In this document: one piece after another, positions 3,338-27,199 of the stretch | Layout: each line of letters starts with the position of its first letter | How positions within the stretch are numbered: the first letter of the stretch is position 1 | Assembly (NCBI GenBank): GCA_947074185.1 | Contig: CAMTOO010000012.1 | Location: 1 to 36,090 of the forward strand | Length of the DNA: 36,090 bases | Reading direction: 5' to 3' | Source: an uncultured Negativicutes bacterium | Lineage (GTDB): Bacteria > Bacillota > Negativicutes > Acidaminococcales > Acidaminococcaceae | Position numbers and translations under genes: made by a program | The notes under the pieces: model-generated | What the model was told of the DNA's origin: nothing | What the model saw: only the letters and a program-made list of their open reading frames with translations | Database searches by the model: none

Positions 3338-3365
3338 TTGTAATTTTGTTTGGATTTGCTATAAT
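3338..3365 (+). promoter_or_regulatory. Sigma-70-type promoter of the riboswitch/adhesin transcript
   Basis: A perfect -10 box TATAAT at 3360-3365 lies 16 bases after a -35-like TTGTAA at 3338-3343. Transcription would begin near 3372, just ahead of the c-di-GMP aptamer. The -35 is 4 of 6, so strength is uncertain. Confidence 0.6.
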
Positions 3366-3390
3366 GAAAGTAGATTAGAGTCTAAAAACT

Positions 3391-3475
3391 TAATATTGGG
3401 CAAACCTAGTGAAAGCTAGGGACGCAAAGCTAAAGGGTCTAAAAAATGTAAATTTTATGACAGCCAGTTGCACTT
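3391..3475 (+). promoter_or_regulatory. c-di-GMP-I (GEMM-I) riboswitch aptamer
   Basis: The conserved blocks of the GEMM-I aptamer appear in order. GGGCAAACC is at 3398-3406. The stem CCTAGT/GCTAGG is closed by a GAAA tetraloop, followed directly by GGACGCAAAGC at 3419-3429. A GTCTAAAA ... TTATGACAGCC segment has the look of the tetraloop receptor and second helix, and CAGTTGC supplies the closing 3' strand. It lies in the leader of the autotransporter gene and is followed by two hairpins and a terminator, so it most likely controls transcription elongation into the adhesin gene in response to cyclic di-GMP. Confidence 0.93.
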
Positions 3476-3525
3476 TGTACTATACAATACAAAGTTATTC
3501 TCTAGCAGAAGAAGTTCTGGTAGAG
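3473..3525 (+). promoter_or_regulatory. Expression-platform hairpins between aptamer and terminator
   Basis: Two hairpins follow the aptamer. The first pairs CTTTGTA (3473-3479) with TACAAAG (3488-3494), a perfect 7-bp stem. The second pairs CTCTAGCAGAA (3500-3510) with TTCTGGTAGAG (3515-3525), 11 pairs with one G/G mismatch and a GAAG loop. Neither has a T-tract, so they are not terminators. The first overlaps the 3' edge of the aptamer and could compete with it. TAGAG at 3376-3380 could also pair with CTCTA of the second hairpin. I could not find a clean antiterminator for the terminator arm. Confidence 0.5.
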
Positions 3526-3543
3526 GGTCTATTGATTAGTATA

Positions 3544-3576
3544 GGCACATATGCAGATGGCATATGTGCCTTTTTT
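3544..3576 (+). terminator. Rho-independent terminator in the riboswitch leader
   Basis: A perfect 10-bp stem GGCACATATG (3544-3553) / CATATGTGCC (3561-3570) has a 7-base loop and is followed by six T. It sits between the aptamer and the ribosome binding site of the autotransporter, so it acts as an attenuator for that gene. Confidence 0.9.
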
Positions 3577-3617
3577 GTGCACATGTGTAGTCAACCGATG
3601 TTCGAGGAGGGACTATC

Positions 3618-6600
3618 ATGATTAGTAAAAAGAAAAGTTGGTTAAGCAAAGCGGTAACGCTTGGTTTGATCACAGGTATGGCAACAATGGGAGCAAATTC
3701 CATTGCTTTTGCAGGTGAAGGGGACGGACCTATCATTGCAGAACGTACAAAAGTTGTCGGAATTACTACTGATGTAACAACTTCAATAATTCATGCTTAT
3801 GGCAGTTTGGCAAGTGACGGTAGTAGCGCAGCAGTAGGTGCTGTAACAGACATTATTGGTGGGGTCATTAATATAAATGCCAATGAAGGCAAATATATGG
3901 ATCCAGAAGGAGTGGCTATTCCTGATCCTAGCCACATAGAAGCAACTGCCACTACGGGTGCTGCTATTCTTGCGTATTCGAAAACTGCAGATGCTAAAGG
4001 TCCTATCATTACACTAGCTGCTGATGAAGTTGTAGCATTTAGCGAAACAAGTGTTGGTATTCAAGCTACTGTTGCTAGTACTGCTAAAAACAATCCAGTA
4101 ATTACTGCAGCTAACGCACCAACAGTTAGCATTAATGCTAAAACCATTACCGCAATTGGTTATCAAGGCGGTGTTTCAGCACAAGATGGTGTTGTAAATC
4201 TTGGTAAAAAAGAGAATTATGCAGATGTAATTCATATGGAATCAACATTTACTACAGATTTGAAAGCTGCAACTTATGATGATCTTTATAGTGCACTCTA
4301 TGTTCGTAGTTATGGTACAGCTGGTGAAACTGGCGTGATTAATGCTCACGGACATAATATATACGTTATGACTCCAAAAAATCCTTTTACTAATGCTGAA
4401 AATGCAAGTGCTAACGATGGCATGTATGGAACTGCAATTGCAGGTAATGGATATGGACTAGTTAACCTTAATTCAGATCACTACATGGTAATTCATGGTA
4501 ATATTGAAGGTCAAAATGAACTTTTGAATCCAGATGGAACTTCTGGTCTTCACATCTTAGTTAACCAAGATGTTGAAACTCCAGCAACTCTAAATTTTGT
4601 TGGTGATTATATTACTGCAGCAGATGCTGCAGTAGTAAAGATCGCAGGTGGCGAAAATTCTAATGTTGAAGTAAATAAAATTGCAGCATCTTCTTCTAAA
4701 GTAGAAGGTGGCTTAGTAGAAATCACATTAAGTGGTGAAAATAGCAAAATTCAAAATAAAACTATTACCGCTCAATATGGTGGTGAAGTTGATGTAGAAG
4801 CTGCTAATATTAAAACTCAACAAATTCAAGCTTTAGGTAGTCAAGCTACTGACGCAGGAAGTTCTGCAGTTGGTGCAAAAACTACTGTAAAAGGTGGTAA
4901 AGTTAATATTAGTGTTACTGATAAATTATTTGCTACAGGTGAAAGCGATGCTATTCTTGCTAAATCTACTTATGCAGATCAAGAAGCACCTCAAATTTAT
5001 ATTGAGGGCGGAGATGTTTATGCTGAAAGTTCAAAAGGAACAGGTATCTGGGCTACAGTAGCTAAAACAGCTAGAAACAACAGTGCGATTACAGCAGAAA
5101 ATGCTCCTACTGTTACTATTAATGCAGAAAATATTACTGCAATCGGTGCAGATTGTGCAGTAGTTTCGCAAGATGGTATCATCAATCTTGGTTCTAGAGA
5201 TAACTATGCTACAAATGTTCAACTATCTTCTACTTACACTAGCGATAGTGCAAGTGATGATTATACAGATCTTTGGAGTACAATCTTTGTTCGTAGTTAT
5301 GGTACAGCTGGTGAAACTGGCGTAGTAAATGTATACGGCGAAAATGTATATGTATTATCTGAAGCAAACGCATTTACTAATGAAGCAAATGACAATTATG
5401 CAGATAACAAACATGGTTCTGCAATTGCAGGCAATGGATTTGGTACAGTTAATCTCAATGCTTCTAACAAAATGATTATTCAAGGTATTATTGAAGGTCA
5501 AAATGAACTTTTAAATCCAGATGGAACTTCTGGTCTTCAAATTTTAATTAACCAAGATATCGCAAATGCTGGTCAAGTAGACTATACTGGTGCTTATATT
5601 AGCGCTGCAGATGCTGCTAAAATATTAATGACTGGTGGAGATAATTCTACAGTAGATACTTATGGTATCATCGCATCTTCTTCTAAAGTAGATGGTGGTA
5701 CAATTGGTATTGCTCTTGGTGAAAACAGTACTATCAACAGTGATGTTATCACTGCACAATATGGCGGTAGAGTTGCAGTTAAAGCTTCTGAAATTAACGC
5801 TGAAACAATTGGCGCATACGGAAGCCAAAAAGCTGACGCTGGTAGCTCTGCAGTAGGTGCAAAAACAGCTATCAACGGTGGCACAGTGATTGTTGAAGCT
5901 GGTAGTCTTAAAGTACAAGATGAAGATAGTTCTATCGTTGCAATTTCTCAATATGCAGATGCAACAGCTCCAACAGTTGCGATTGTTGCTGATTCTGTTG
6001 AAGCAACTAGTACTGGTGGCGCAGCAGTTTGGGCATCTGTTCAAAAAACTGCTTCTGGTAATACTGCAATTAATAAAGAAAATGCTCCTCGTATTGCAAT
6101 TATAGCTGAAAATATTAATTTAATAGGCGCAGATTGCGCAGTTATTTCTCAAGATGCTCTTGTAAATATTGTAGGTGATGATATTTACTTAGCTTCTACT
6201 TATACAAGCAACAGTGCAACTGATCGTTACACTGATATGTGGAGTGCATTATATGCTCGTGGTTTCACTACTCAAGATGAAACTGGTATCATCAACGTTT
6301 ATGGTGGTAGAGTAACAATCGATACTCCAGAACAAGCATTTACTAATGAAGAAAATGCTAACTATGATAAAAAATATGGTAATGCAATTGCTGGTAATGG
6401 TTTTGGTGCAATCTATGTAGATGCAACTGAAGAATTAACTATCCATGGTATCATTGAAGGTCAAAACACTTACATGAATCCAAATGGTAGCTCTGATCTA
6501 AAAATTCACATTAACCAAAAAAATAAAGAAGCTAGCAAATTAAATTATGAAGGCGCTTACATTGAAGCGGCTGATAATGCTGAAGTATTACTTTCTGGTG

Positions 6601-9413
6601 GAGATGGTTCCACAGTAATTACTGATTACATTAAAGCTTCTTCTACTAGCAAAGCTGGTGGCGTTATTGGTATCAACTTAGCAGGTGAAAGTACTTTCGC
6701 TGGCGATATCCTAGCTACAAAAGGTGGCCAAGTTTCTGTAAAAGCAGCTAACATCGACTCTGGTACAATCGGTGCAGATAATGCACACATCGCTATTGAT
6801 GCTGGCATAGCTAACGCAGATACTCTTAATGCAAGTGATGACGGTGTTATCTTAATTCGCGGTGGCAAAATAACTGCTGAAACAATTAAAACTTCTGGCT
6901 TTGGTGCTGTAAAAGTAACTGGAGGCACATTACACGCTGACTCTTATGAAGCTGAGGAAAACGGTATCCAAATTTCTGGCGCTGGTGCTTTAGAAGCACT
7001 TACTGGCCAAGTATTTGATAATGGTTATGTAGATGTTGAATCTAATCCTACAGCTAAAAAAGAAATGTTCTACTTTGACGATGGTACACTCGTACTTTCT
7101 GATGAAGAAATAAGTCTTGCATATTTATCAAATGCTAAAAATATCATCAATGTAGGTGAAAATAATACTACAATTGTTACTTTAGCAACTAAGTTTGCTG
7201 AAATTGAATTAGAAGATGGAAAAGTTAGCATTGATGTAATTAAAGATCTTGAACTTAGCGATATTGTTTTAGGTCAAATCACTGGTACTAATGACGGTGA
7301 CCTTGATGCTACAGGTAAAAACATTGCTTTCAAAAACCTTGACTTAGGCGATGGTAAAGAAGTTACTATCGGTGATAGCGGTGTTGTAACCTTAATGGGT
7401 GGCGCTCCTGGTACAGATTTAGTTGAAGGCGGCGATGGAGATAAAACTATCGCAGTTGAAGAAAACGGCAAACTTTCCTTAGGTGTTCCTGGTGTTGATA
7501 CTGAAGGCATCTTCGCAGGTACAATCCGTGCTCAAGATGGTAAAGTAGACGTAAACGGTGGTAGTTTCACAGTAGGTGAAATTAATCTTGCTGGCGCATC
7601 TGAATTAAATGTTACTGCTACAGCTAATCTTAATAGCTTGCAAGCTGATGCAACTAGTATTGTCATAGTAGGTAATCACGATACAGCTGGTACTTTAAGA
7701 ATTAAAGAAGCAGAACTTAAAGGCGGTATGTTATTCCTAGATCCTGCTTGGAAAGCTGGCGTAAACCTTCCACAAGAAGCTTCTAGTGTTGCAATCGAAC
7801 GTTTCACTAATGGAGATGTTGATGGTAACTTAGCAATTGGTCAAAACTCTATCTTAGCAATTGGTACTGCAACTGCTGATTGGGCAGAAACTGCAGTTAA
7901 TAAATCTGGCGTAACTTGGGGGCCAAGTGGCGTTGGTGCTGCATTAGCAATCGGTACTTCAGGTCAAGTACTTAGCGCTGGTAACAGTATCTTAGTAGAT
8001 GGTAGCTTAACAAGTGTACCAACTCTTACACCTGATAAAGTTGTATTCAAAGCAAACTCTGCGTTTATCGTAGATGTAGCTGGTTATACTAATGCTGATC
8101 TAGCTCTATGGGCTCCTACTGCTACAACTACAGTAGAACCTGGTTCTAAACTCATTCTTGACAATGCAGTAGCTGGTAACGGTTATTGGGTTCTTGATTC
8201 AGCTTCTGATCCATCAATTGGTGGTGCTGCAAACTGGACTGGTAATGTATTAACTACTGATAGAATGATTGATGCTTCTGGCGCAAAAGTAACTGCTGAT
8301 GGTTATGTAGATGGCTTAGTAGTCGCTTCTGACCCTGGTGATTATAATATCCCAACTATCATGGATGAGATTTGGACTAACAAATTAAATGATCCTAATA
8401 GTTTAAACCCTGGTATTTCCTTCTTATCTAAAGCAACAAACACTTTATATATTCCAAATAAAGCTGATTCTGAAAGAACTATCAACAGTGCAACTCAAAT
8501 TGCTGCAATCGGTGGTATGCAAGCATCCACTTTAAGCGCAGTGAAAATGTTCGGTGGTGCAGTTGCTGATCGTCTCAATTTGATGGACGAAGGAGATCAT
8601 CTCTGGGCTGTTTATAACCATGGTAAAACTAAAGTTCGTGACTTAGATGCAGGAAACTACAAAACTGGTTACGACGATAAAGTAAATGGTATTACAATCG
8701 GTTATGACTTCAAAAACGATGAAACTGGTAAATATGGTGTAGCATTCACTTATGGTGAAGGTAAAGTTACTAGCGTTGGTGATTTTGATCCAACTCGTAA
8801 CGACTACAAATACTATGGTTTAGATGCTTACAAAGTATGGCGTAACGATAAAGTGGATGTTCTTGCTGATATCGGCTATATTCACAATAAAGGTGAAATC
8901 GCTCAACAAACACTTCTTGGTGAATTAAAAGCTGATGTTAAATCTAACGTTTTAACAGCTGGTGTTCGCGGCAATTTCAAAACTGCAAACGAAGCAATTA
9001 CTCCATATGCAGGTTTACGTTATGTTAACTTAGCAACTAAATCTTTCAATACTACTGATGCTACAGGTACAGTATTTGAAACTGACAAAGACACTCAAAA
9101 TATCTGGTTATTACCAGTAGGTGTAAGTTATGCTAGAGAAATCAAAAAAGGCGATAACCTATTTATCCCTAAAGTTGATATCGGTGCTCTCTTCACTTTC
9201 GGTGATAAAGATATTAGCACTGTAGTAAGAGTACCTGGTATTGCTTCTAGCAACACTATCGGTCTTAGCATGGCAGATTCAGTGTCCTTCATCGGTAGTG
9301 CAGGATTTGAATACAAAACTAAGAAAGTTAATTATGGCTTAAGCTATCAATTACAAGCTTCTTCTAAAGAAGTACGTAATGGCTTATTAGCAAACATCGA
9401 ATTCAAATTCTAA
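3618..9413 (+). CDS. Giant type V autotransporter adhesin (1931 aa)
   Basis: The protein begins with a basic, hydrophobic signal peptide (MISKKKSW... ending AFA, cleavage likely after residue 32), so it crosses the inner membrane by Sec. Residues about 60-1050 hold three long tandem repeats of 317-345 residues. These are rich in Gly, Ala, Thr, Asn and short beta strands, as in beta-helix passengers. A non-repeated Gly-rich passenger follows to about residue 1630. The last about 290 residues alternate polar and hydrophobic strands and end in NIEFKF, the C-terminal aromatic signature of an outer-membrane autotransporter barrel. ATG 3618 follows AGGAGG. A c-di-GMP riboswitch and terminator precede it and a Sia-type c-di-GMP module follows it, so a surface adhesion or aggregation role is inferred. 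No protease or pectinase catalytic motif was recognised. Confidence 0.92.
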   Translation: MISKKKSWLSKAVTLGLITGMATMGANSIAFAGEGDGPIIAERTKVVGITTDVTTSIIHAYGSLASDGSSAAVGAVTDIIGGVININANEGKYMDPEGVAIPDPSHIEATATTGAAILAYSKTADAKGPIITLAADEVVAFSETSVGIQATVASTAKNNPVITAANAPTVSINAKTITAIGYQGGVSAQDGVVNLGKKENYADVIHMESTFTTDLKAATYDDLYSALYVRSYGTAGETGVINAHGHNIYVMTPKNPFTNAENASANDGMYGTAIAGNGYGLVNLNSDHYMVIHGNIEGQNELLNPDGTSGLHILVNQDVETPATLNFVGDYITAADAAVVKIAGGENSNVEVNKIAASSSKVEGGLVEITLSGENSKIQNKTITAQYGGEVDVEAANIKTQQIQALGSQATDAGSSAVGAKTTVKGGKVNISVTDKLFATGESDAILAKSTYADQEAPQIYIEGGDVYAESSKGTGIWATVAKTARNNSAITAENAPTVTINAENITAIGADCAVVSQDGIINLGSRDNYATNVQLSSTYTSDSASDDYTDLWSTIFVRSYGTAGETGVVNVYGENVYVLSEANAFTNEANDNYADNKHGSAIAGNGFGTVNLNASNKMIIQGIIEGQNELLNPDGTSGLQILINQDIANAGQVDYTGAYISAADAAKILMTGGDNSTVDTYGIIASSSKVDGGTIGIALGENSTINSDVITAQYGGRVAVKASEINAETIGAYGSQKADAGSSAVGAKTAINGGTVIVEAGSLKVQDEDSSIVAISQYADATAPTVAIVADSVEATSTGGAAVWASVQKTASGNTAINKENAPRIAIIAENINLIGADCAVISQDALVNIVGDDIYLASTYTSNSATDRYTDMWSALYARGFTTQDETGIINVYGGRVTIDTPEQAFTNEENANYDKKYGNAIAGNGFGAIYVDATEELTIHGIIEGQNTYMNPNGSSDLKIHINQKNKEASKLNYEGAYIEAADNAEVLLSGGDGSTVITDYIKASSTSKAGGVIGINLAGESTFAGDILATKGGQVSVKAANIDSGTIGADNAHIAIDAGIANADTLNASDDGVILIRGGKITAETIKTSGFGAVKVTGGTLHADSYEAEENGIQISGAGALEALTGQVFDNGYVDVESNPTAKKEMFYFDDGTLVLSDEEISLAYLSNAKNIINVGENNTTIVTLATKFAEIELEDGKVSIDVIKDLELSDIVLGQITGTNDGDLDATGKNIAFKNLDLGDGKEVTIGDSGVVTLMGGAPGTDLVEGGDGDKTIAVEENGKLSLGVPGVDTEGIFAGTIRAQDGKVDVNGGSFTVGEINLAGASELNVTATANLNSLQADATSIVIVGNHDTAGTLRIKEAELKGGMLFLDPAWKAGVNLPQEASSVAIERFTNGDVDGNLAIGQNSILAIGTATADWAETAVNKSGVTWGPSGVGAALAIGTSGQVLSAGNSILVDGSLTSVPTLTPDKVVFKANSAFIVDVAGYTNADLALWAPTATTTVEPGSKLILDNAVAGNGYWVLDSASDPSIGGAANWTGNVLTTDRMIDASGAKVTADGYVDGLVVASDPGDYNIPTIMDEIWTNKLNDPNSLNPGISFLSKATNTLYIPNKADSERTINSATQIAAIGGMQASTLSAVKMFGGAVADRLNLMDEGDHLWAVYNHGKTKVRDLDAGNYKTGYDDKVNGITIGYDFKNDETGKYGVAFTYGEGKVTSVGDFDPTRNDYKYYGLDAYKVWRNDKVDVLADIGYIHNKGEIAQQTLLGELKADVKSNVLTAGVRGNFKTANEAITPYAGLRYVNLATKSFNTTDATGTVFETDKDTQNIWLLPVGVSYAREIKKGDNLFIPKVDIGALFTFGDKDISTVVRVPGIASSNTIGLSMADSVSFIGSAGFEYKTKKVNYGLSYQLQASSKEVRNGLLANIEFKF
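3795..6765 (+). repeat. Three long tandem repeats in the autotransporter passenger
   Basis: Landmarks recur three times: the blocks AYGSLASDGSS (residue 60), ALGSQATDAGSS (405) and AYGSQKADAGSS (733). Each unit also contains an IEGQNxxxNPxG segment (bases near 4505, 5495 and 6455) and an AIAGNG(Y/F)G segment. Unit lengths are 345, 328 and about 317 residues. Units 2 and 3 are more alike and share GADCAV, where unit 1 has IGYQGGV. Confidence 0.9.
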
Positions 9414-9489
9414 TTTTAAGGCAGCAAGTCTTTCATATCTTGCTAAATGATTAAGTTATAAGCAGACTGCAAGTACGGCGGATATAAGA

Positions 9490-9523
9490 GGCGGTTATTA
9501 CCACACGGTGGTAACCGCCTTTT
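9490..9523 (+). terminator. Terminator after the autotransporter gene
   Basis: A 13-bp stem, GGCGGTTATTACC (9490-9502) with GGTGGTAACCGCC (9507-9519), includes two G-T wobbles and an ACAC loop and is followed by TTTT. It separates the adhesin from the siaD-like gene. Confidence 0.85.
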
Positions 9524-9527
9524 AAGG

Positions 9528-9533
9528 TATAAT
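9528..9533 (+). promoter_or_regulatory. -10 box upstream of the Sia-like operon
   Basis: A perfect TATAAT in the context AAGGTATAATGC lies 32 bases before ATG 9565. The expected -35 position falls inside the preceding terminator stem and is not a good match, so this is a weak or unusual promoter call. Confidence 0.4.
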
Positions 9534-9564
9534 GCTTTGCAACAAAATTTGAGGAGGTGAGCTC

Positions 9565-10296
9565 ATGGTAAATGATTTATTTAGTCGCGAAGAAGAGGTC
9601 TTGAAACAAGGCGAAAAGTATTTGCAATCAGTAACTGATGAAGCTGTTACTGCTGAATATGCTAAATTATTAAAAGAATATGGGCGCGTCCTCAAACAGT
9701 TGCGAAGAGTTACTAAAATATCTGATAGAACTACAGGGGAATTAAACAATAATAAGCTAGATTTAATTGACAAAGTACAATTTGATCCATTAACAGGGAT
9801 TTATAATCGTCGTTATATGGAAACTGCTTTGAAAAAAATATTACTAGCCTTAGCTGCTAATTCTGAAGACTTATGTATCATGATGCTTGATATTGATTTC
9901 TTTAAAAAATACAATGATACTTATGGTCATCAAGAAGGTGATGAATGCTTACGACAAGTGGCTCAATCTATTAGTAAAAGTATTCGCAAAGATGATTTTG
10001 TAGCGCGTTATGGTGGAGAAGAATTTATTGTGGTATTACCTAAAGCGAATGATTCTGGAGCTAGATTAGTTGCAGAAAAAATTTTAACAGGTATTCGAAG
10101 TTTAAAAATTCCTCATAAAGCAAGCGAGGTTGCTGATTATGTAACTATTTCTATTGGGATTGTTCAAGATAAAGTAACAGATCCTAACGTTGTTAGTACA
10201 TATATAAAAACAGCAGATAGCGCATTGTATGTTTCAAAGAATTCAGGCAGAAATAGATTTACATTTAAAAACCTAAAAGGGGAGGATAAAATATGA
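9565..10296 (+). CDS. siaD: GGDEF diguanylate cyclase, SiaD-like
   Basis: The 243-residue cytosolic enzyme makes cyclic di-GMP from two GTP. Residues 1-68 form a helical, probably coiled-coil stalk with YAKLLKEYGRVLKQ and ISDRTTGELN, the pattern seen in front of SiaD-type GGDEF domains. The GGDEF domain begins at FDPLTGIYNRRY (73-84). It has the metal-binding LDIDFF (108-113), an intact active-site GGEEF (150-154) and the inhibitory I-site RKDD (141-144) five residues before it. There is no membrane segment. ATG 9565 follows GAGGAGGTGA. Its stop overlaps the start of the siaB-like gene (ATGA), so the two are translationally coupled. By analogy to Pseudomonas SiaD, its activity should depend on binding unphosphorylated SiaC. 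Confidence 0.9.
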   Translation: MVNDLFSREEEVLKQGEKYLQSVTDEAVTAEYAKLLKEYGRVLKQLRRVTKISDRTTGELNNNKLDLIDKVQFDPLTGIYNRRYMETALKKILLALAANSEDLCIMMLDIDFFKKYNDTYGHQEGDECLRQVAQSISKSIRKDDFVARYGGEEFIVVLPKANDSGARLVAEKILTGIRSLKIPHKASEVADYVTISIGIVQDKVTDPNVVSTYIKTADSALYVSKNSGRNRFTFKNLKGEDKI

Positions 10297-10853
10297 ATAG
10301 TCTATTAGATTTTTATCGTTTTGTTAAAGATAAAGACATTAATATTATCTATAGCGGTCCTATTTGGAGTAACGGTGTAGAAGGTATTGGTGATACTTTA
10401 AAACGTCGCTTAGAGTTCGATGATTTGCCACTACCAACTTCACAAGCAGTATTTTCTGTATTCGTAGAGCAAATGAATAACATGCTTATGTATTCTGCAG
10501 AAAAATTTGTTGCTCCAGCAGTTATGGACGAAAAACAAGCTGCTACAGCTACAGGAATTTTTCTCTTAAGTTGCAGAGGTAAACAATATTTTGTTCAATC
10601 AGGCAATGTTTTACGTAATGATCAAGTAAATATTATGAAAGATAAAATTGATTATTTAAATACGTTAGATAAACAAGAATTACGTAAATTCTATAAGCAA
10701 AAATTGCGTGAAGAAAATGACAATCCTGAAAGCAGGGGAGGCGGAATAGGGCTGGTTGAAATTGCTAAACGTGCTAGTTCAAAAATTGATTATTCTTTTG
10801 AACGATATGATGATGCACATTCATTTTTTACAATGAGTGTAACAATAGAGTAG
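10293..10853 (+). CDS. siaB: SiaB-like protein kinase (DUF6272)
   Basis: The 186-residue soluble protein resembles the SiaB family, GHKL-fold ATPases that phosphorylate SiaC. The ATP-binding N-box is FVEQMNNMLMYS at residues 57-68, and the glycine-rich G-box is RGGGIGLVEIAKRAS at 148-162. Length and motif placement fit the family. ATG 10293 overlaps the siaD-like stop codon by four bases and is preceded by GGGGAGG. The siaC-like gene starts 14 bases after its stop. In Pseudomonas, SiaB phosphorylation of SiaC lowers diguanylate cyclase activity, and the same antagonism to the downstream phosphatase is inferred here. Confidence 0.8.
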   Translation: MNSLLDFYRFVKDKDINIIYSGPIWSNGVEGIGDTLKRRLEFDDLPLPTSQAVFSVFVEQMNNMLMYSAEKFVAPAVMDEKQAATATGIFLLSCRGKQYFVQSGNVLRNDQVNIMKDKIDYLNTLDKQELRKFYKQKLREENDNPESRGGGIGLVEIAKRASSKIDYSFERYDDAHSFFTMSVTIE

Positions 10854-10867
10854 AGGGAGGATATAAT

Positions 10868-11251
10868 ATGTTAAATAGATTAGAAAAAGAGAAAACTGGC
10901 TCTACGCCTTATATCCTTTTTGATGCAGACCAGCATTATATGAAGTTTGCGGGAGAGTCATTTCACGAAAATGTTATCGAGTTTTATGGGGAAATAGATA
11001 GTAATTTAGGGGAATATATGGCTACTGATTTTGGTAAATTTACTTTTGATTGCGAACTTACCTATTTTAATAGCTCTACAGCAAAACTTTTACTTAATAT
11101 GCTTTTAGGCATGGATGATGCCATTGCAGGGACGGATAAAGAAGTAATTGTAAATTGGATTACAACAGAAGATAATGACATTATTATTGAATGCGGGGAA
11201 GACTTTGAGGAAGAAGTGGAGAACATTCAGTTTAATATAATTATGAAATAG
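10868..11251 (+). CDS. siaC: SiaC-like regulatory phosphoprotein (DUF1987)
   Basis: This 127-residue protein fits the SiaC/DUF1987 family. These are small STAS-like partner proteins that switch a diguanylate cyclase according to their phosphorylation state. Visible family blocks are FAGESFHENVIEFYGE at residues 27-42 and LTYFNSSTAKLLLNML at 64-79. The NSST at 68-71 occupies the place of the phosphorylated Thr in the Pseudomonas NTSS motif, so Ser69 is the likely phosphosite (inference by alignment from memory). The gene lies between the kinase-like and phosphatase-like genes with gaps of 14 and 18 bases and has a GAGGGAGG ribosome binding site. Confidence 0.85.
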   Translation: MLNRLEKEKTGSTPYILFDADQHYMKFAGESFHENVIEFYGEIDSNLGEYMATDFGKFTFDCELTYFNSSTAKLLLNMLLGMDDAIAGTDKEVIVNWITTEDNDIIIECGEDFEEEVENIQFNIIMK

Positions 11252-11269
11252 ACTCGATAGGAGGCAGTT

Positions 11270-13348
11270 ATGTTGGATGGATTAGGCTTGGAAACTAACG
11301 AAGATAAATGCGTCGGTTGTAATAAATGCATTTTTGTGTGCCCGACACATGCTAATGATGCTTATTTAACTCATGAAGCTAACCGCATCCATGTGAATGA
11401 TGATTTGTGTATTCGTTGCGGTGAATGTATGGATGTTTGCGACCATGCCGCTAGGGAAATAACAGATGATACAGTACGCTTTTTTGATGATTTAAGTAAA
11501 GGCGAGGAAATATCTATTATTGCAGCTCCTGCAATTAAACACAACATTCCTGAATACAATAAATTATTTGGATATCTAAAAAGCTTGGGTGTAAAAGTTT
11601 TTTATGATGTTTCTTATGGTGCGGATATTACTACTTGGGGTTATATTAAAGCCTATACTGAACATGGCGCGGAATCTATGATTGCGCAACCTTGTCCTGT
11701 AATAGTAAATTATATTGAACATTTTCAACCATCTTTAATAAAACAATTAGCTCCTGTCCATAGCCCTGCTATGTGCACTGCTATTTATATGAAAAAGTAT
11801 CGAGAAATTTCTGGAAAAATTGCTTTCCTATCTCCTTGTATTAGCAAAAGTAATGAATTCGAAGATCCTAATACCCATGGTATGATTTCTTATAATGTTA
11901 CTTACAAAGAGTTATTAAAGTATTTGGCTGATAAAAAAGTTGATTTGGCAGATTATCCTGAAATTAATTTTGATAATGTTGAAGGTAGCTTAGGTTTTAC
12001 TTTTTCTCGCCCTGGCGGATTAAGAGAAAATGTTAAATTATATTTGGGAAGTACTCTTTGGATTAAGCAAATTGAGGGTATTAAAAATGTTCAGCACTAT
12101 TTTGTAGAATATGAAAAAAGAGTTGCTGAAGGAAAACCAGTACCACAACTGATAGATGTATTAAATTGCGAACATGGTTGCAATGTTGGCACAGGTACTA
12201 ATAAAACTTTAGAAATCGATCAAATCGATTATCAAACTAATCAAATGAAGTATAAGCTCGAAAAACGTCAAGCAGAAGAGCTTATGGCTTATTTTGATAA
12301 AACACTCACCTATGAAGATTTTGTACGTTCTTATAATGATAAGAGCCATGTTCAAGTTAAAGCTACTGAGAAGCAGTTAGAAGAAGTGTTTACGCGTCTT
12401 GAAAAATACACTCCAGCGGAACGCAAAATTAATTGTTTCGCCTGTGGTTATGGTAATTGTTATGATTTTGCTAATGCAGTAGCTTTGGGTCAAAATCATA
12501 TTGAAAATTGCTTTAATTATTCTCAAAAACTTTTACATGAACAAGCTCTTGAAATTCATGATAAGAATGAAGCAATTGTTTCTAGTTTAGAATATGCTAG
12601 TAAAATTCAGCGTAATCTGTTACCAGCACGTGATGCTTTTGATAAAAGTTTCCACGATTATGAGGTGCTTTGGCATCCTAAAGATATTGTAGGCGGAGAT
12701 ATTTATTGGTTTAGACAATTTGAAGATGGGGCACTCCTTTGTGTTTGTGATTGCACAGGTCATGGCACTCCTGGCGCGTTGCTTACAATGTTAGTTGCAA
12801 CAACTTTAGATAGTATAATCAATAAAGATAATTATTCTGATTTAGGTTCTGTTATGATGAATTTGGATAAACGCATGGTAGAAGTACTTAATGTTGTTGA
12901 GAAAAATCATCATGCGGGCTGGAAGAATACAACATCCATCAATGATGGTGCTGATTTAGCTCTACTTTGTATCAAGAAAACTGGCGAAATCACTATTGCT
13001 GCTGGCAATACACATGTATTTATTTGTGATGGCAAGGAAGTACAAGATATTAAAGGGCAAAAAATTCACGTTGGTGAAGGGTTGATTACAAGTCCTGAGA
13101 TGATTGAAATTTCTACTATTAAAAATAGTCCAAATTTAAAATACTATGTAGCGTCTGATGGTCTTTTTGATCAAATTGGTGCTGCAAGTGGTATTCCTTT
13201 TGGCTATCGAAAATTCAAGAGTATTATTAATGAAAAACATGATGCTGCTCTTAAAGATATTTTTGAAGAAGTGTGGTGCGAGTTTGAGGCTCATAGAGGC
13301 GAAGAATGTCGCAGAGATGACGTAGCTTTTGTAGGATTCGTTCCTTAA
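11270..13348 (+). CDS. Fe-S / [FeFe]-hydrogenase-like sensor fused to PP2C (SpoIIE) phosphatase
   Basis: The 692-residue cytosolic protein has four parts. Residues 12-60 hold a two-cluster ferredoxin (Cys14/17/20/24 and Cys47/50/53/57). Residues about 75-340 resemble the [FeFe]-hydrogenase large-subunit domain, with Cys142 in QPCP, Cys190 in SPCISK, and Cys300 and Cys304 in CEHGC, the four positions that hold the H-cluster cubane. The neighbouring proton-transfer Cys of true hydrogenases is Pro141 here. A further Fe-S domain has Cys389/392/397/414. After a helical linker (415-450) comes a SpoIIE-type PP2C phosphatase with VGGD (474-477), DCTGHGTPG (494-502), Asp562, ASDGLFD (628-634) and RRDD (681-684). 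It closes the siaD-siaB-siaC operon and takes the place of SiaA, the SiaC phosphatase, with a redox or H2 sensor in place of a membrane sensor. Catalytic hydrogenase activity is unlikely. Confidence 0.88.
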   Translation: MLDGLGLETNEDKCVGCNKCIFVCPTHANDAYLTHEANRIHVNDDLCIRCGECMDVCDHAAREITDDTVRFFDDLSKGEEISIIAAPAIKHNIPEYNKLFGYLKSLGVKVFYDVSYGADITTWGYIKAYTEHGAESMIAQPCPVIVNYIEHFQPSLIKQLAPVHSPAMCTAIYMKKYREISGKIAFLSPCISKSNEFEDPNTHGMISYNVTYKELLKYLADKKVDLADYPEINFDNVEGSLGFTFSRPGGLRENVKLYLGSTLWIKQIEGIKNVQHYFVEYEKRVAEGKPVPQLIDVLNCEHGCNVGTGTNKTLEIDQIDYQTNQMKYKLEKRQAEELMAYFDKTLTYEDFVRSYNDKSHVQVKATEKQLEEVFTRLEKYTPAERKINCFACGYGNCYDFANAVALGQNHIENCFNYSQKLLHEQALEIHDKNEAIVSSLEYASKIQRNLLPARDAFDKSFHDYEVLWHPKDIVGGDIYWFRQFEDGALLCVCDCTGHGTPGALLTMLVATTLDSIINKDNYSDLGSVMMNLDKRMVEVLNVVEKNHHAGWKNTTSINDGADLALLCIKKTGEITIAAGNTHVFICDGKEVQDIKGQKIHVGEGLITSPEMIEISTIKNSPNLKYYVASDGLFDQIGAASGIPFGYRKFKSIINEKHDAALKDIFEEVWCEFEAHRGEECRRDDVAFVGFVP

Positions 13349-13370
13349 TATTGTTGGGTGAGTGTGAAAA

Positions 13371-13407
13371 AGAGAGTTGTGGCTATTGCTGCAACTCTCT
13401 TTGCTTT
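13371..13407 (+). terminator. Terminator after the Sia-like operon
   Basis: AGAGAGTTG (13371-13379) pairs perfectly with CAACTCTCT (13392-13400), with a 12-base loop. The T-tract is short (TTTGCTTT), so efficiency may be moderate. Confidence 0.7.
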
Positions 13408-13441
13408 CGGGATAATAGTTTTTATTTTATTTTAAAAGTGG

Positions 13442-13447
13442 TATAAT
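13442..13447 (+). promoter_or_regulatory. -10 box for the DUF805 gene pair
   Basis: TATAAT at 13442-13447 lies in the context GTGGTATAATG. It overlaps the first in-frame ATG of the downstream reading frame, which excludes that ATG as the start. No convincing -35 is visible. Confidence 0.5.
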
Positions 13448-13478
13448 GAAATATAAGATTAAAACTGGAGGGATACCT

Positions 13479-14162
13479 ATGGGGTTTATTAAAAATACTT
13501 TTTGGAGTTTTAGTGGTCGTTTAAATAGAATGGCCTATTTTACAAGGTTTTTTATTTTAGTATTAATTGGTCCGGCTATACACTATGTTTTGGGTATGGT
13601 TTTTGGTTATGAAAATATTGCATCAAATGCAAAAGGGTTCGCGTCCACTCTTACTATGCTAATAGAAGGTGTTTGGGGATTTCTAACAAGTCTTGCAACG
13701 ATTTCTTTAATGACAAGACGTTTGCACGATCTTAACCATAGTGGTTGGTGGCAATTATTATTCTTCATTCCATTTTGTACTGCTGTAGTAGCTTGCATGT
13801 TTATGTTTTTTGGCATGGCAGCTTCTAGTGCAGGTTCTGGCTTGATGGCATTAGGTGTAAGTATTATTGGTATTGCTTTAATATTCTTTACTTTATTATT
13901 TAGCTTATGCTTTAAACTTTATGTTTTATTCTTCAAAGGTACAGATGGTCCTAATGATTATGGTCCAGATCCGCTTAAACCAGATTACGTAACTCCTGGT
14001 GTTCCTGTATCGGAAATGCAAAAAGTTCAAGAAACTCCTGCGGAACCAGTTAAAACTGAAGAAGTTAAACCTGTCGTTGAAGAGTCTAAGCCTGAAGAAA
14101 CACCTGCAGAACCAAAACCTGAAACAGAGGAAAAACCTGTGGATGGCGAAAAAACTGAATAA
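13479..14162 (+). CDS. DUF805 membrane protein with acidic Pro/Glu tail
   Basis: The 227-residue inner-membrane protein has the DUF805 opening FWSFSGRLNRMAYF and the conserved RRLHDLNHSGWW segment between its first and second pairs of hydrophobic helices. It ends its membrane part with KGTDGPNDYGPDPL, also typical. The last about 50 residues are a hydrophilic tail rich in Pro, Glu and Lys, not part of the family core. I place the start at ATG 13479 after CTGGAGGG. An in-frame ATG 33 bases upstream lies inside the promoter -10 box. A paralogue lacking the tail follows 49 bases downstream. DUF805 function is not established. Confidence 0.85.
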   Translation: MGFIKNTFWSFSGRLNRMAYFTRFFILVLIGPAIHYVLGMVFGYENIASNAKGFASTLTMLIEGVWGFLTSLATISLMTRRLHDLNHSGWWQLLFFIPFCTAVVACMFMFFGMAASSAGSGLMALGVSIIGIALIFFTLLFSLCFKLYVLFFKGTDGPNDYGPDPLKPDYVTPGVPVSEMQKVQETPAEPVKTEEVKPVVEESKPEETPAEPKPETEEKPVDGEKTE

Positions 14163-14211
14163 GTTATTTAAACGATATCGTGAGTAATAGATAAAAGTGG
14201 GGGGGATTTTT

Positions 14212-14736
14212 ATGAGTGATTTAAAAAGCACGTTTTTTACATTTGATGGTCGCTTAAACAGATGGAAATTTTTTAAATACAATGCGATTCTTTGGATAAT
14301 TGGAGCTGTTTTGCAAGCTATTGCAGCGGCAATGTTTCCATCAGTTGTTACGACAGCTACAACAACACAAAATGTGCCAGGTGTAATGGGTGTAATCCTT
14401 GGTGTTTGGGGGCTTGTAACAGCAGTAGCATCCATTTCTCTTGCTTGTAGACGTTTACATGACTTGAATTGTAGTGGTTGGTGGCAATTATTACCAATTG
14501 GGGCGATACTTATTTTTATATTCGCTGTTGTGGGTATTAGTATTTTCACTGGAGTTGTTAGTGAAGGTGGAAGTCAGCAAATAGTTGGTGCATTTCTTGG
14601 AAGTTTCCTCTTGGGCTGGCTTGCATTATTTATTTTTAATTTGGGATATATGATTTTCCTTTACTGCATAAAGGGTACAGAAGGACCTAATAAATATGGC
14701 GAAGATCCATTAGCATTTGTTGAAACAAATCTTTGA
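14212..14736 (+). CDS. DUF805 membrane protein (second copy)
   Basis: The 174-residue inner-membrane protein is a paralogue of the preceding gene. It has TFDGRLNRWKFFKY near the N-terminus, RRLHDLNCSGWW in the middle, and KGTEGPNKYGEDPL near the end, with four hydrophobic segments. It lacks the Pro/Glu tail. The start is ATG 14212. A GTG five codons earlier overlaps the GGGGGGG ribosome binding site and is not credible. The pair probably arose by tandem duplication and shares a transcript, because no terminator lies between them. Function is unknown. Confidence 0.85.
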   Translation: MSDLKSTFFTFDGRLNRWKFFKYNAILWIIGAVLQAIAAAMFPSVVTTATTTQNVPGVMGVILGVWGLVTAVASISLACRRLHDLNCSGWWQLLPIGAILIFIFAVVGISIFTGVVSEGGSQQIVGAFLGSFLLGWLALFIFNLGYMIFLYCIKGTEGPNKYGEDPLAFVETNL

Positions 14737-25546: not shown

Positions 25547-25605
25547 TATGAATAATATTAGGAATTTTACTAGGTTTATGGTAAAATAATTTATATAATT
25601 TAATA

Positions 25606-25697
25606 AATCCACTAGGGGAGCTTCGGCTGAGAAACTTTATGTTGACCCTTGGAACCTGATTTTCCGGATAATGCCGGCGGAGGGAAGTGGCGATTGT
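25606..25697 (+). promoter_or_regulatory. TPP riboswitch (THI element)
   Basis: The conserved blocks are in order: GGGGAGC, GGCTGAGA, ACCCTTGGAACCTGAT, CCGGATAATGCCGGCGGAGGGAAG. The closing stem is CCACT (25609-25613) with AGTGG (25686-25690). It precedes thiC and a terminator, so thiamine pyrophosphate should reduce thiC transcription. Confidence 0.97.
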
Positions 25698-25713
25698 GTT
25701 TTAAAAAGCAATT

Positions 25714-25776: not shown

Positions 25777-27075
25777 ATGGCTACACAGATGCAACATGCA
25801 AGAAATGGAATTATTACTAGGGAAATGAAAATAGTTGCAGAGCAAGAAGGTCTTTCAGAAGAACTTATTCGCGAAAGAGTCGCGAAGGGAACCATTGCTA
25901 TTTGCGCTAATGTTAACCATAAAAATCTAATACCACGTGGTGTGGGTGAAGGTCTTACTGTTAAGGTAAATGCTAACATTGGCACTTCTAGCTCTTATCC
26001 TGATCCTGCGCCTGAAATTGAAAAACTTAATGCAGCTATTGCAGCTGGTGCAGATGCTGTAATGGATTTATCTACTGGGGATAATATCAACGAATCTCGT
26101 AAAGCGATAATTGCTGCTTCTACTGTTATGGTTGGAACGGTGCCTATTTATCAAGCTACGGTTGAAACTATTAAGCGTACTGGTGCGGTAGTGAATATGA
26201 CTAAGGAAGATTTATTTAAGGCTATTCGTGACCAGGCAGAAGATGGTGCGGACTTTTTGACTATCCATTGTGGTATCACGAAAACTGTCTTAAAAGCGCT
26301 TGTAGACGAAGGACGCGTTATGGATGTTGTTAGTCGTGGTGGTAGTTTTATTACTGGCTGGATGCTTCATAATGATAAGGAAAATCCTTTGTATGAATAT
26401 TATGATGAAATTTTAGATATTTGCGAAGAATTTGATGTTACTATTAGCTTGGGAGATGGTTTAAGACCTGGTTGTCTTGCTGATGCTACAGATAGAGCGC
26501 AGATTCAAGAACTTTTAAATATTGGCGAATTAACTCAAAGAGCTTGGGAACGCGGCGTACAAGTTATGTGTGAAGGACCTGGTCACGTGCCGTATAATCA
26601 AATAGCTGCTAATATGCAACTCCAAAAACGTATTTGTCATGGAGCACCTTTTTATGTATTAGGACCTCTTGTTACTGATGTTGCGCCTGGTTACGACCAT
26701 ATTACAAGTGCTATAGGTGGAACTCTTGCTGCAGTAAGTGGTGCGGACTTCCTTTGTTATGTAACACCTGCAGAGCATTTAGGTTTACCTGATATGGATG
26801 ATGTGCGTGAAGGTGTTATTGCAACAAAAATTGCAGCTCATGCAGCAGATATTGCTCGCGGGCTTCCGCAAGCTTGGGAATGGGATTTAAAGATGGCGCA
26901 AGCAAGAAAAAATTTAGATTGGGATGCGCAAATCAAACTTGCTCTTGATCCGGTGAAAGCACAAAGCTATCGTGATAAAAAGAATAAAAGCGATGACGAA
27001 GCTTGTTCTATGTGTGGGGATTATTGCGCAGTTAAAATTGTTGGTGAATATTTAGAGAAGTGTAAAAAGAAGTAA
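25777..27075 (+). CDS. thiC: Phosphomethylpyrimidine synthase ThiC
   Basis: The 432-residue radical-SAM enzyme converts aminoimidazole ribotide to hydroxymethylpyrimidine phosphate for thiamine synthesis. TQMQHARNGIITREM opens the protein. NANIGTSSSYPD, MDLSTGDNINESRKA and QVMCEGPGHVPYNQI are core blocks. The C-terminal cluster motif CSMCGDYC (Cys410, Cys413, Cys418) binds the [4Fe-4S]. It is the short form lacking the N-terminal ThiC-associated extension. A TPP riboswitch and terminator lie upstream, supporting the thiamine role over the ThiC-like benzimidazole synthases. No other thi gene is in the window. ATG 25777 follows AGGGGG. Confidence 0.97.
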   Translation: MATQMQHARNGIITREMKIVAEQEGLSEELIRERVAKGTIAICANVNHKNLIPRGVGEGLTVKVNANIGTSSSYPDPAPEIEKLNAAIAAGADAVMDLSTGDNINESRKAIIAASTVMVGTVPIYQATVETIKRTGAVVNMTKEDLFKAIRDQAEDGADFLTIHCGITKTVLKALVDEGRVMDVVSRGGSFITGWMLHNDKENPLYEYYDEILDICEEFDVTISLGDGLRPGCLADATDRAQIQELLNIGELTQRAWERGVQVMCEGPGHVPYNQIAANMQLQKRICHGAPFYVLGPLVTDVAPGYDHITSAIGGTLAAVSGADFLCYVTPAEHLGLPDMDDVREGVIATKIAAHAADIARGLPQAWEWDLKMAQARKNLDWDAQIKLALDPVKAQSYRDKKNKSDDEACSMCGDYCAVKIVGEYLEKCKKK

Positions 27076-27120: not shown

Positions 27121-27130
27121 AAAGTATATG

Positions 27131-27159
27131 TTGAAAATAATAGATAGAAAAGATATAAT
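27131..27159 (+). promoter_or_regulatory. Sigma-70-type promoter of the second autotransporter
   Basis: TTGAAA (27131-27136), exactly 17 bases, then TATAAT (27154-27159). The first in-frame ATG of the downstream frame (27128) touches this -35, which excludes it as the start codon. Confidence 0.85.
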
Positions 27160-27199
27160 TAGCGTATATGTTCGAGTTCTTATACGTGAGGTGTTATTT

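Follow-up and report, generated by a model that had tools for sequence, protein, structure and literature searches.

The window analysed here, a 36,090-nucleotide stretch of DNA from an uncultured Negativicutes bacterium, belongs to an anaerobe with an outer membrane, and the genome assembly comprises 1.57 Mb in 82 contigs. Within about 10 kb, the window carries a GEMM-I aptamer, a terminator and a gene for a 1931-aa autotransporter, followed by an operon for a SiaD-like cyclase, SiaB, SiaC and a phosphatase. The features are as follows:

3338–3365, + strand: candidate extended -10 promoter of the sigma-70 type (TTGTAA-16-tgcTATAAT, consensus scan)
3389–3475, + strand: c-di-GMP-I (GEMM-I) riboswitch aptamer (Rfam RF01051, 77.4 bits, full model)
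3543–3577, + strand: intrinsic terminator in the leader (12-bp stem and T-run)
3618–9413, + strand: type Va autotransporter, 1931 aa (PF03797 beta-domain)
9485–9524, + strand: 18-bp hairpin ending in UUUU, a probable terminator in the gap between the autotransporter gene and the sia operon (fold -27.6 kcal/mol, z -6.4)
9565–10296, + strand: SiaD-like diguanylate cyclase, 243 aa (RYGGEEF, RKDD I-site, SiaD-type N-terminal stalk)
10293–10853, + strand: SiaB-family kinase (NF038262, 161 bits; aligns with SiaB 6kko)
10868–11251, + strand: SiaC-like partner-switch protein (PF09345, 111 bits; Ser69 at the phospho-acceptor position)
11270–13348, + strand: SiaA-like phosphatase fusion, 692 aa (hydrogenase-like module, aa 1–425; PP2C/SpoIIE, aa 426–692)
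11270–12544, + strand: hydrogenase-like input module of the fusion (two 4Fe-4S ferredoxin motifs, H-domain, Cx2Cx4Cx16C)
12545–13345, + strand: PP2C phosphatase domain of the fusion (metal-binding aspartates; aligns with SiaA-PP2C 6k4e)
13369–13402, + strand: 15-bp terminator-like hairpin 3' of the sia operon (fold of 13340–13450, z -4.6)

A first-pass annotation had placed a c-di-GMP-I aptamer and a terminator in the leader of the autotransporter gene, and this was borne out. The aptamer exceeded the RF01051 cut-off of 35 bits by a wide margin (E = 1e-13) and was the only GEMM-I match in a genome-wide search of the assembly. The 12-bp hairpin with its T-run lies between the aptamer and the ORF, which encodes the PF03797 domain at residues 1672–1910 (E = 8e-22). 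In the consensus scan, the candidate promoter had the joint top score (10/12) and was alone among the top-scoring sites in having a TG before the -10, while promoter-like sites overall were not enriched compared to shuffled sequences. Equilibrium folding gave a terminator probability of about 0.98 both with and without the aptamer bonus and predicted no clear switch. Assigning the sign of the riboswitch from folding was abandoned, since the terminator stood at this value in both states and the competing fold near the transcript end at 3560 was marginal and too weak. The type Va architecture of the protein is complete, with a signal peptide (judged by eye), a passenger consisting of three repeats of about 325 aa each, and the beta-domain; no adhesin domain was found in it by Pfam and PDB sequence searches.

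The four sia genes are separated by -4, +14 and +18 nt, and each has a G-rich ribosome site. They had been described beforehand as tightly spaced genes for a cyclase, a SiaB-like kinase, a SiaC-like protein and a PP2C phosphatase; the spacing and all four assignments hold, but the 692-aa "PP2C" is a fusion to a hydrogenase-like module. The cyclase matched GGDEF at 177 bits, and the SiaD model also matched it, from residue 27, over part of the stalk; the match to SiaD in PDB (7e6g) begins at residue 33, and a PDB search with the stalk alone gave no matches. This stalk is common to the SiaD-type cyclases from siaABCD operons of other Negativicutes. The kinase keeps the catalytic Glu and the G-rich ATP motif. 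In SiaC, the phospho-acceptor position is Ser69 in N-S-S-T versus N-T68-S-S in P. aeruginosa, and a phosphorylatable Ser at the Thr68 position is also found in the Negativicutes L058, L062, L065 and L066. The NCBIfam equivalog cut-offs for SiaA, SiaB, SiaC and SiaD were not reached, and the SiaB subfamily model NF038262 alone passed its cut-off. SiaB, SiaC, PP2C and GGDEF genes all lie in one operon, as in SiaABCD modules. These sequence comparisons support the four genes as true relatives of the Sia genes, in which the catalytic, phospho-acceptor and stalk features are conserved. SiaC structurally resembles anti-sigma-factor antagonists (PMC7647112), and the SiaABC switch might mainly control something else, such as an anti-sigma pathway, with a constitutive cyclase. 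We consider this improbable, given that the cyclase is the first gene of the same operon and retains the stalk that the SiaD model partly matches.

In the phosphatase, the SiaA-like PP2C match (171 bits) is confined to the C-terminal part, which has the conserved metal-binding aspartates. Rather than a membrane SiaA with a periplasmic sensor, the N-terminus is a hydrogenase-like Fe-S module, in which two 4Fe-4S motifs are followed by an H-domain with four ligand cysteines (motifs L1 QPCP, L2 LSPCISK and L3 VLNCEHGC) and a C-terminal Cx2Cx4Cx16C. All 16 cluster cysteines are invariant across 13 aligned proteins. When the QPCP, LSPC and VLNC motifs were compared with published ones (PMC8163306), the proton-transfer Cys299 was lost and both Met353 and Met497 were changed. 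The long-type SiaA phosphatases scanned in other Negativicutes carry a dCache sensor as input, which argues that the input part of the window's phosphatase has been replaced. The sensor module is widely fused to signalling outputs: relatives are joined to MCP (chemotaxis), HisKA/HATPase (histidine kinase), sigma-54 and GGDEF outputs, and fusions of the hydrogenase module to GGDEF occur in 12 other Negativicutes genomes. In the tree, the window's module groups with these Negativicutes GGDEF-fused modules with a support of 89/90. No second hydrogenase-PP2C fusion was found among the relatives examined. An AlphaFold model of the fusion (mean pLDDT 54, PP2C part mostly below 50) suggested a long linking helix at residues 410–462.

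All parts of the locus are identified, their order is established and their motifs are intact, and the riboswitch is unique in the assembly. The locus had been read as a candidate self-contained c-di-GMP circuit. This reading is supported in part, in that true Sia relatives lie beside a real riboswitch, the sole one found, but it overlooked the hydrogenase-like sensor input, the most unusual feature here. We propose that the sia operon is a partner switch with a changed input that feeds the riboswitch of the autotransporter, which we regard as plausible, if unproven, with about an even chance of being correct. The cytosolic hydrogenase-like Fe-S module would respond to H2, the redox state or some comparable signal and in turn set the activity of the attached PP2C, which would remove from Ser69 of SiaC the phosphate added by the SiaB kinase. 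Unphosphorylated SiaC would bind the cyclase stalk and turn on c-di-GMP synthesis, and c-di-GMP would bind the GEMM-I aptamer 6 kb upstream and alter termination before the autotransporter gene. In this scheme we infer which way each step of regulation runs, what kind of signal is sensed, and that this cyclase is the main source of the c-di-GMP read by the riboswitch. A hydrogenase-like iron-sulfur sensor seems to gate the c-di-GMP genes, and the arrangement suggests, short of proof, that redox or hydrogen levels control surface stickiness.

One variant of the proposed circuit differs in the input. HydG was not found in this assembly of 82 contigs, and the HydF gene is interrupted by an in-frame stop. 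The [4Fe-4S] clusters of the module could let it sense redox state, Fe-S status or O2 while it binds no H2, because a complete H-cluster would not be made; five other carriers of the module also have no HydG above the cut-off, and four of these have a completeness of 97% or more. HydG may, however, be hidden in one of the gaps of the assembly, and a sequencing error may account for the stop in HydF. In addition, every H-cluster ligand cysteine is conserved, and TamHydS, in which the pocket is similarly altered, turns over H2 (PMC8163306). An earlier argument that lack of HydG means lack of an H-cluster was withdrawn after an intact group A hydrogenase, the interrupted HydF gene and a HydE-like radical SAM protein were found in the genome. 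We give this variant of the proposed circuit, without H2 binding, somewhat less than an even chance.

A survey of Negativicutes for conserved adjacency of the riboswitch, autotransporter and sia genes, proposed in the first-pass annotation, came out negative within the genomes searched. Of the 59 family genomes one has SiaC and 58 lack it, and in the class the count is 25 of 380. The window's genome is the only one in which the adjacency was observed, and it alone represents its genus in the set searched. A genome of the sister genus (G031) has a riboswitch-autotransporter pair without SiaC. These distributions fit a reading in which the neighbours form no private circuit: the riboswitch would read a cell-wide pool supplied by all cyclases, on which four further GGDEF proteins of this genome (two GGDEF-EAL and two others) also act, and the sia operon would serve other targets, having been co-located through gene acquisition at an adhesin locus. 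RNA folding places a strong hairpin between the autotransporter gene and the sia operon, which as separate transcription units agree with this reading. The sole GEMM-I found in the genome, however, adjoins its sole SiaC; by plain arithmetic, made post hoc, if a single sia operon were inserted at random into 1.57 Mb, it would come to lie no more than 6.1 kb from a single GEMM-I in about 0.8% of cases, or roughly 1%. Since no second GEMM-I was found, c-di-GMP from this cyclase, if it acts on any GEMM-I RNA, acts here. We judge the reading without a private circuit a serious alternative with roughly a one-in-three chance. No firm origin was assigned to the operon from a concatenated SiaB-SiaC-PP2C tree, in which the window branch is long, and plasmid records searched with P0005 gave none covering 80% of the query.

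The proposed circuit is favoured by the pairing of the only detected GEMM-I with the only SiaC and by the grouping of the sensor module with GGDEF-fused modules, and it is opposed by the one-genome adjacency, the SiaC-less G031 pair, the four other GGDEF proteins, the intervening hairpin and the terminator probability of about 0.98 regardless of the aptamer. Its fullest form, with the phosphatase gated by a sensory [FeFe]-hydrogenase domain and with H2 or redox acting through c-di-GMP and one riboswitch on a single giant surface protein, all within 10 kb, is by our estimate less likely than not. If true, it would tie surface attachment in anaerobes to the redox balance of fermentation, and the same sensor would reach c-di-GMP by a second path in the direct hydrogenase-GGDEF fusions of other Negativicutes. 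Because the likely substrate (SiaC) of the phosphatase fused to the sensor, its likely target (the cyclase) and the likely readout (one riboswitch and one surface protein) all lie inside the same 10 kb, and GGDEF fusions occur elsewhere, the link from hydrogenase to c-di-GMP is directly testable.

Sia partner switches and sensory hydrogenases are each known, and we found a hydrogenase-like input described for no Sia system. The module resembles [FeFe] groups C1–C3 of HydDB (kinase-, chemotaxis- and phosphatase-linked, and labelled there as of "undetermined role") and the group D enzyme TamHydS in its two N-terminal [4Fe-4S] motifs, altered H-domain and C-terminal Cx2Cx4Cx16C. Unlike these, it sits on a SiaA-type PP2C within a c-di-GMP module, no PAS domain was matched, and its H-cluster is putative. 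Group C3 [FeFe] hydrogenases have already been proposed to signal via Ser/Thr phosphatases (PMC5037454). The [NiFe] group 2c of HydDB, which is diguanylate cyclase-linked, also represents a putative link from H2 to c-di-GMP, but it is a hydrogenase family unrelated to this [FeFe]-like module.

In B. thuringiensis, control of the adhesin Cap through GEMM-I readthrough is established (PMC4933901), and there the Bc2 riboswitch, as here, lies with a terminator upstream of a surface-protein gene. Cap is cell-wall-anchored, whereas the protein here is an autotransporter; no Sia module has been reported adjoining Bc2, whereas the sia operon adjoins here; and the sign of Bc2 is ON, whereas folding does not fix that of the window's riboswitch. 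For P. aeruginosa, the workings of SiaABCD are established (PMC7647112, PMC8457831), and the window shares with that system a PP2C phosphatase, a SiaB kinase, SiaC and a stalked GGEEF cyclase in a single operon, with the catalytic residues and the phospho-acceptor position retained. The two differ in gene order (D-B-C-A here versus A-B-C-D), in the replacement of Thr68 of SiaC by Ser, and in the input, where a cytosolic hydrogenase-like module stands in place of the membrane HAMP sensor of SiaA. In the siaABCD operons of L058, L062, L065 and L066, the short SiaD-type cyclase has the stalk seen in the window and SiaC has NSSTxK, again as in the window, but SiaA carries a dCache sensor and the genes run A-B-C-D.

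All of the elements named in the first-pass annotation, which proposed a c-di-GMP circuit with a Sia module beside a riboswitch-controlled adhesin, were found: the aptamer, the terminator, the 1931-aa autotransporter and the four downstream genes. They are arranged in the window as follows.

3338-3365, extended -10 promoter candidate, upstream of the aptamer
3389-3475, GEMM-I aptamer (77.4 bits against a cut-off of 35)
3543-3577, 12-bp terminator, downstream of the aptamer
3618-9413, autotransporter gene, next after the leader (1931 aa; PF03797, E=8e-22)
between autotransporter and sia operon, 18-bp hairpin (-27.6 kcal/mol, z -6.4)
9565-13348, plus strand, four-gene sia operon (gaps of -4, +14 and +18 nt; clear ribosome sites)

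Genome searches detected one GEMM-I and one SiaC in the window's genome. Folding of the leader gave the terminator as the default structure (~0.98) with or without an aptamer energy bonus, and no prominent aptamer-dependent antiterminator was seen. The closest precedent for the sign of the switch is Bc2-Cap, the GEMM-I riboswitch and adhesin of B. thuringiensis, where the terminator is the default state and the switch is ON (PMC4933901); by analogy, the switch here might also be ON. The autotransporter passenger contains three repeats of ~325 aa each. Since the 18-bp hairpin stands between them, the autotransporter and the sia operon are probably separate transcripts. Directly 3' of the operon lie two adjoining DUF805 membrane-protein genes (13446-14736). 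The window also holds a TPP riboswitch (25604-25702) upstream of thiC (25777-27075), and a second autotransporter (27128-29950; 940 aa, PF03797) between thiC and pyruvate:ferredoxin oxidoreductase genes, for which no riboswitch was detected.

In P. aeruginosa, SiaC is phosphorylated by SiaB and dephosphorylated by SiaA, and unphosphorylated SiaC activates SiaD via its stalk (PMC7647112, PMC8457831). The window's cyclase shows the RYGGEEF motif together with an RxxD I-site, matches the NCBI SiaD model from residue 27, and carries an N-terminal stalk common to short cyclases in siaABCD operons of other Negativicutes. The kinase passes the SiaB-family model, and its alignment to the SiaB structure from P. 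aeruginosa covers the Glu predicted to be catalytic. SiaC aligns with SiaC structures, with Ser69, a Ser shared by the SiaC of Negativicutes siaABCD operons, at the position of the phosphorylated Thr68. The genome also encodes two GGDEF-EAL and two GGDEF proteins; a 1367-aa FIST-EAL-GGDEF protein (L003/L076 4383-8486, G000:C11) may be a second regulator of c-di-GMP, equipped with a small-ligand sensor.

The phosphatase assignment held for the PP2C domain, which aligns with SiaA-PP2C and keeps the metal-binding aspartates, but overlooked a sensory-type [FeFe]-hydrogenase module at aa 1-425 of the 692-aa protein. The module matches Fe_hyd_lg_C (E=3e-32) and PF04060 and has two 4Fe-4S ferredoxin motifs. 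None of the 16 cluster cysteines varies among 13 aligned proteins; they include those of the C-terminal Cx2Cx4Cx16C, a motif known from group C/D enzymes (PMC8163306). Met353 is replaced by Ser and Met497 by Leu, both as in the group D enzyme TamHydS; Cys299 is lost (PMC8163306). Each of the three long-type Sia phosphatases scanned has a dCache domain as its input. The genome also encodes a stand-alone group D HydS look-alike, a 467-aa [FeFe]-hydrogenase-like protein with C-terminal PF04060 (L165 905-2308, G000:C75).

Among the matches listed from 398 phylum genomes, no other spanned both the hydrogenase and phosphatase parts. Eight loci came out of a peptide-pattern scan across 84,980 genomes, whose reach was limited to close relatives; at none of them is the hydrogenase-like protein joined to PP2C. 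In other proteins this module is attached to MCP, HisKA/HATPase, PAS-sigma54 and, in one Negativicute, GGDEF. A class-wide search found 12 genomes with Hyd-GGDEF proteins, of which G045 belongs to the same family as the window; Pfam checks covered L115, L150 and L158.

Hyd-GGDEF loci: L115, L147-L158
Genomes: G243, G251, G102, G283, G284, G285, G262, G264, G116, G216, G226, G045

The window's module clusters with these fusions in the tree (89/90, short of firm support).

The obvious candidate for the signal is H2. HydDB lists groups C1-C3 as proposed H2 sensors tied to kinases, chemotaxis and phosphatases, all labelled 'undetermined role' (PMC5037454). The genome encodes an intact group A [FeFe]-hydrogenase (L163) and a HydE-like protein; an in-frame TGA divides HydF into two ORFs (L170 9488-10705, G000:C6:37517-38689), and no HydG was detected among the 82 contigs. 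This may reflect assembly gaps and error, or real loss; if the loss is real, the module would sense redox or Fe-S state.

The adjacency that the first-pass annotation proposed to survey across Negativicutes does not appear to be conserved: SiaC occurs in 1/59 family and 25/380 class genomes, with the window's genus represented by one genome, and the window's gene set was not found at any other class locus inspected. GEMM-I occurs in 77/380 class genomes. G031 belongs to another genus of the family; the one GEMM-I detected there lies directly 5' of a 1785-aa autotransporter ORF related to the window's (27.6% over 1132 columns, E=4e-66), and the genome has no SiaC; thus the riboswitch-autotransporter pair can exist independently of the Sia module. 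The signal peptide of this ORF (L070 9296-9157, minus strand) is in a different frame from the remainder, with a run of ~8 G between them, which may point to slippage-based phase variation or to an error in sequencing.

In the open-access papers searched, we found neither a hydrogenase-type module as input to a Sia switch nor one fused to GGDEF, and no paper on direct Hyd-GGDEF fusions. HydDB gives a cyclase-linked class for [NiFe] hydrogenases only (PMC5037454). The parts themselves are of known kinds: the Sia partner switch, phosphatase-linked sensory [FeFe]-hydrogenases, and GEMM-I before an adhesin.
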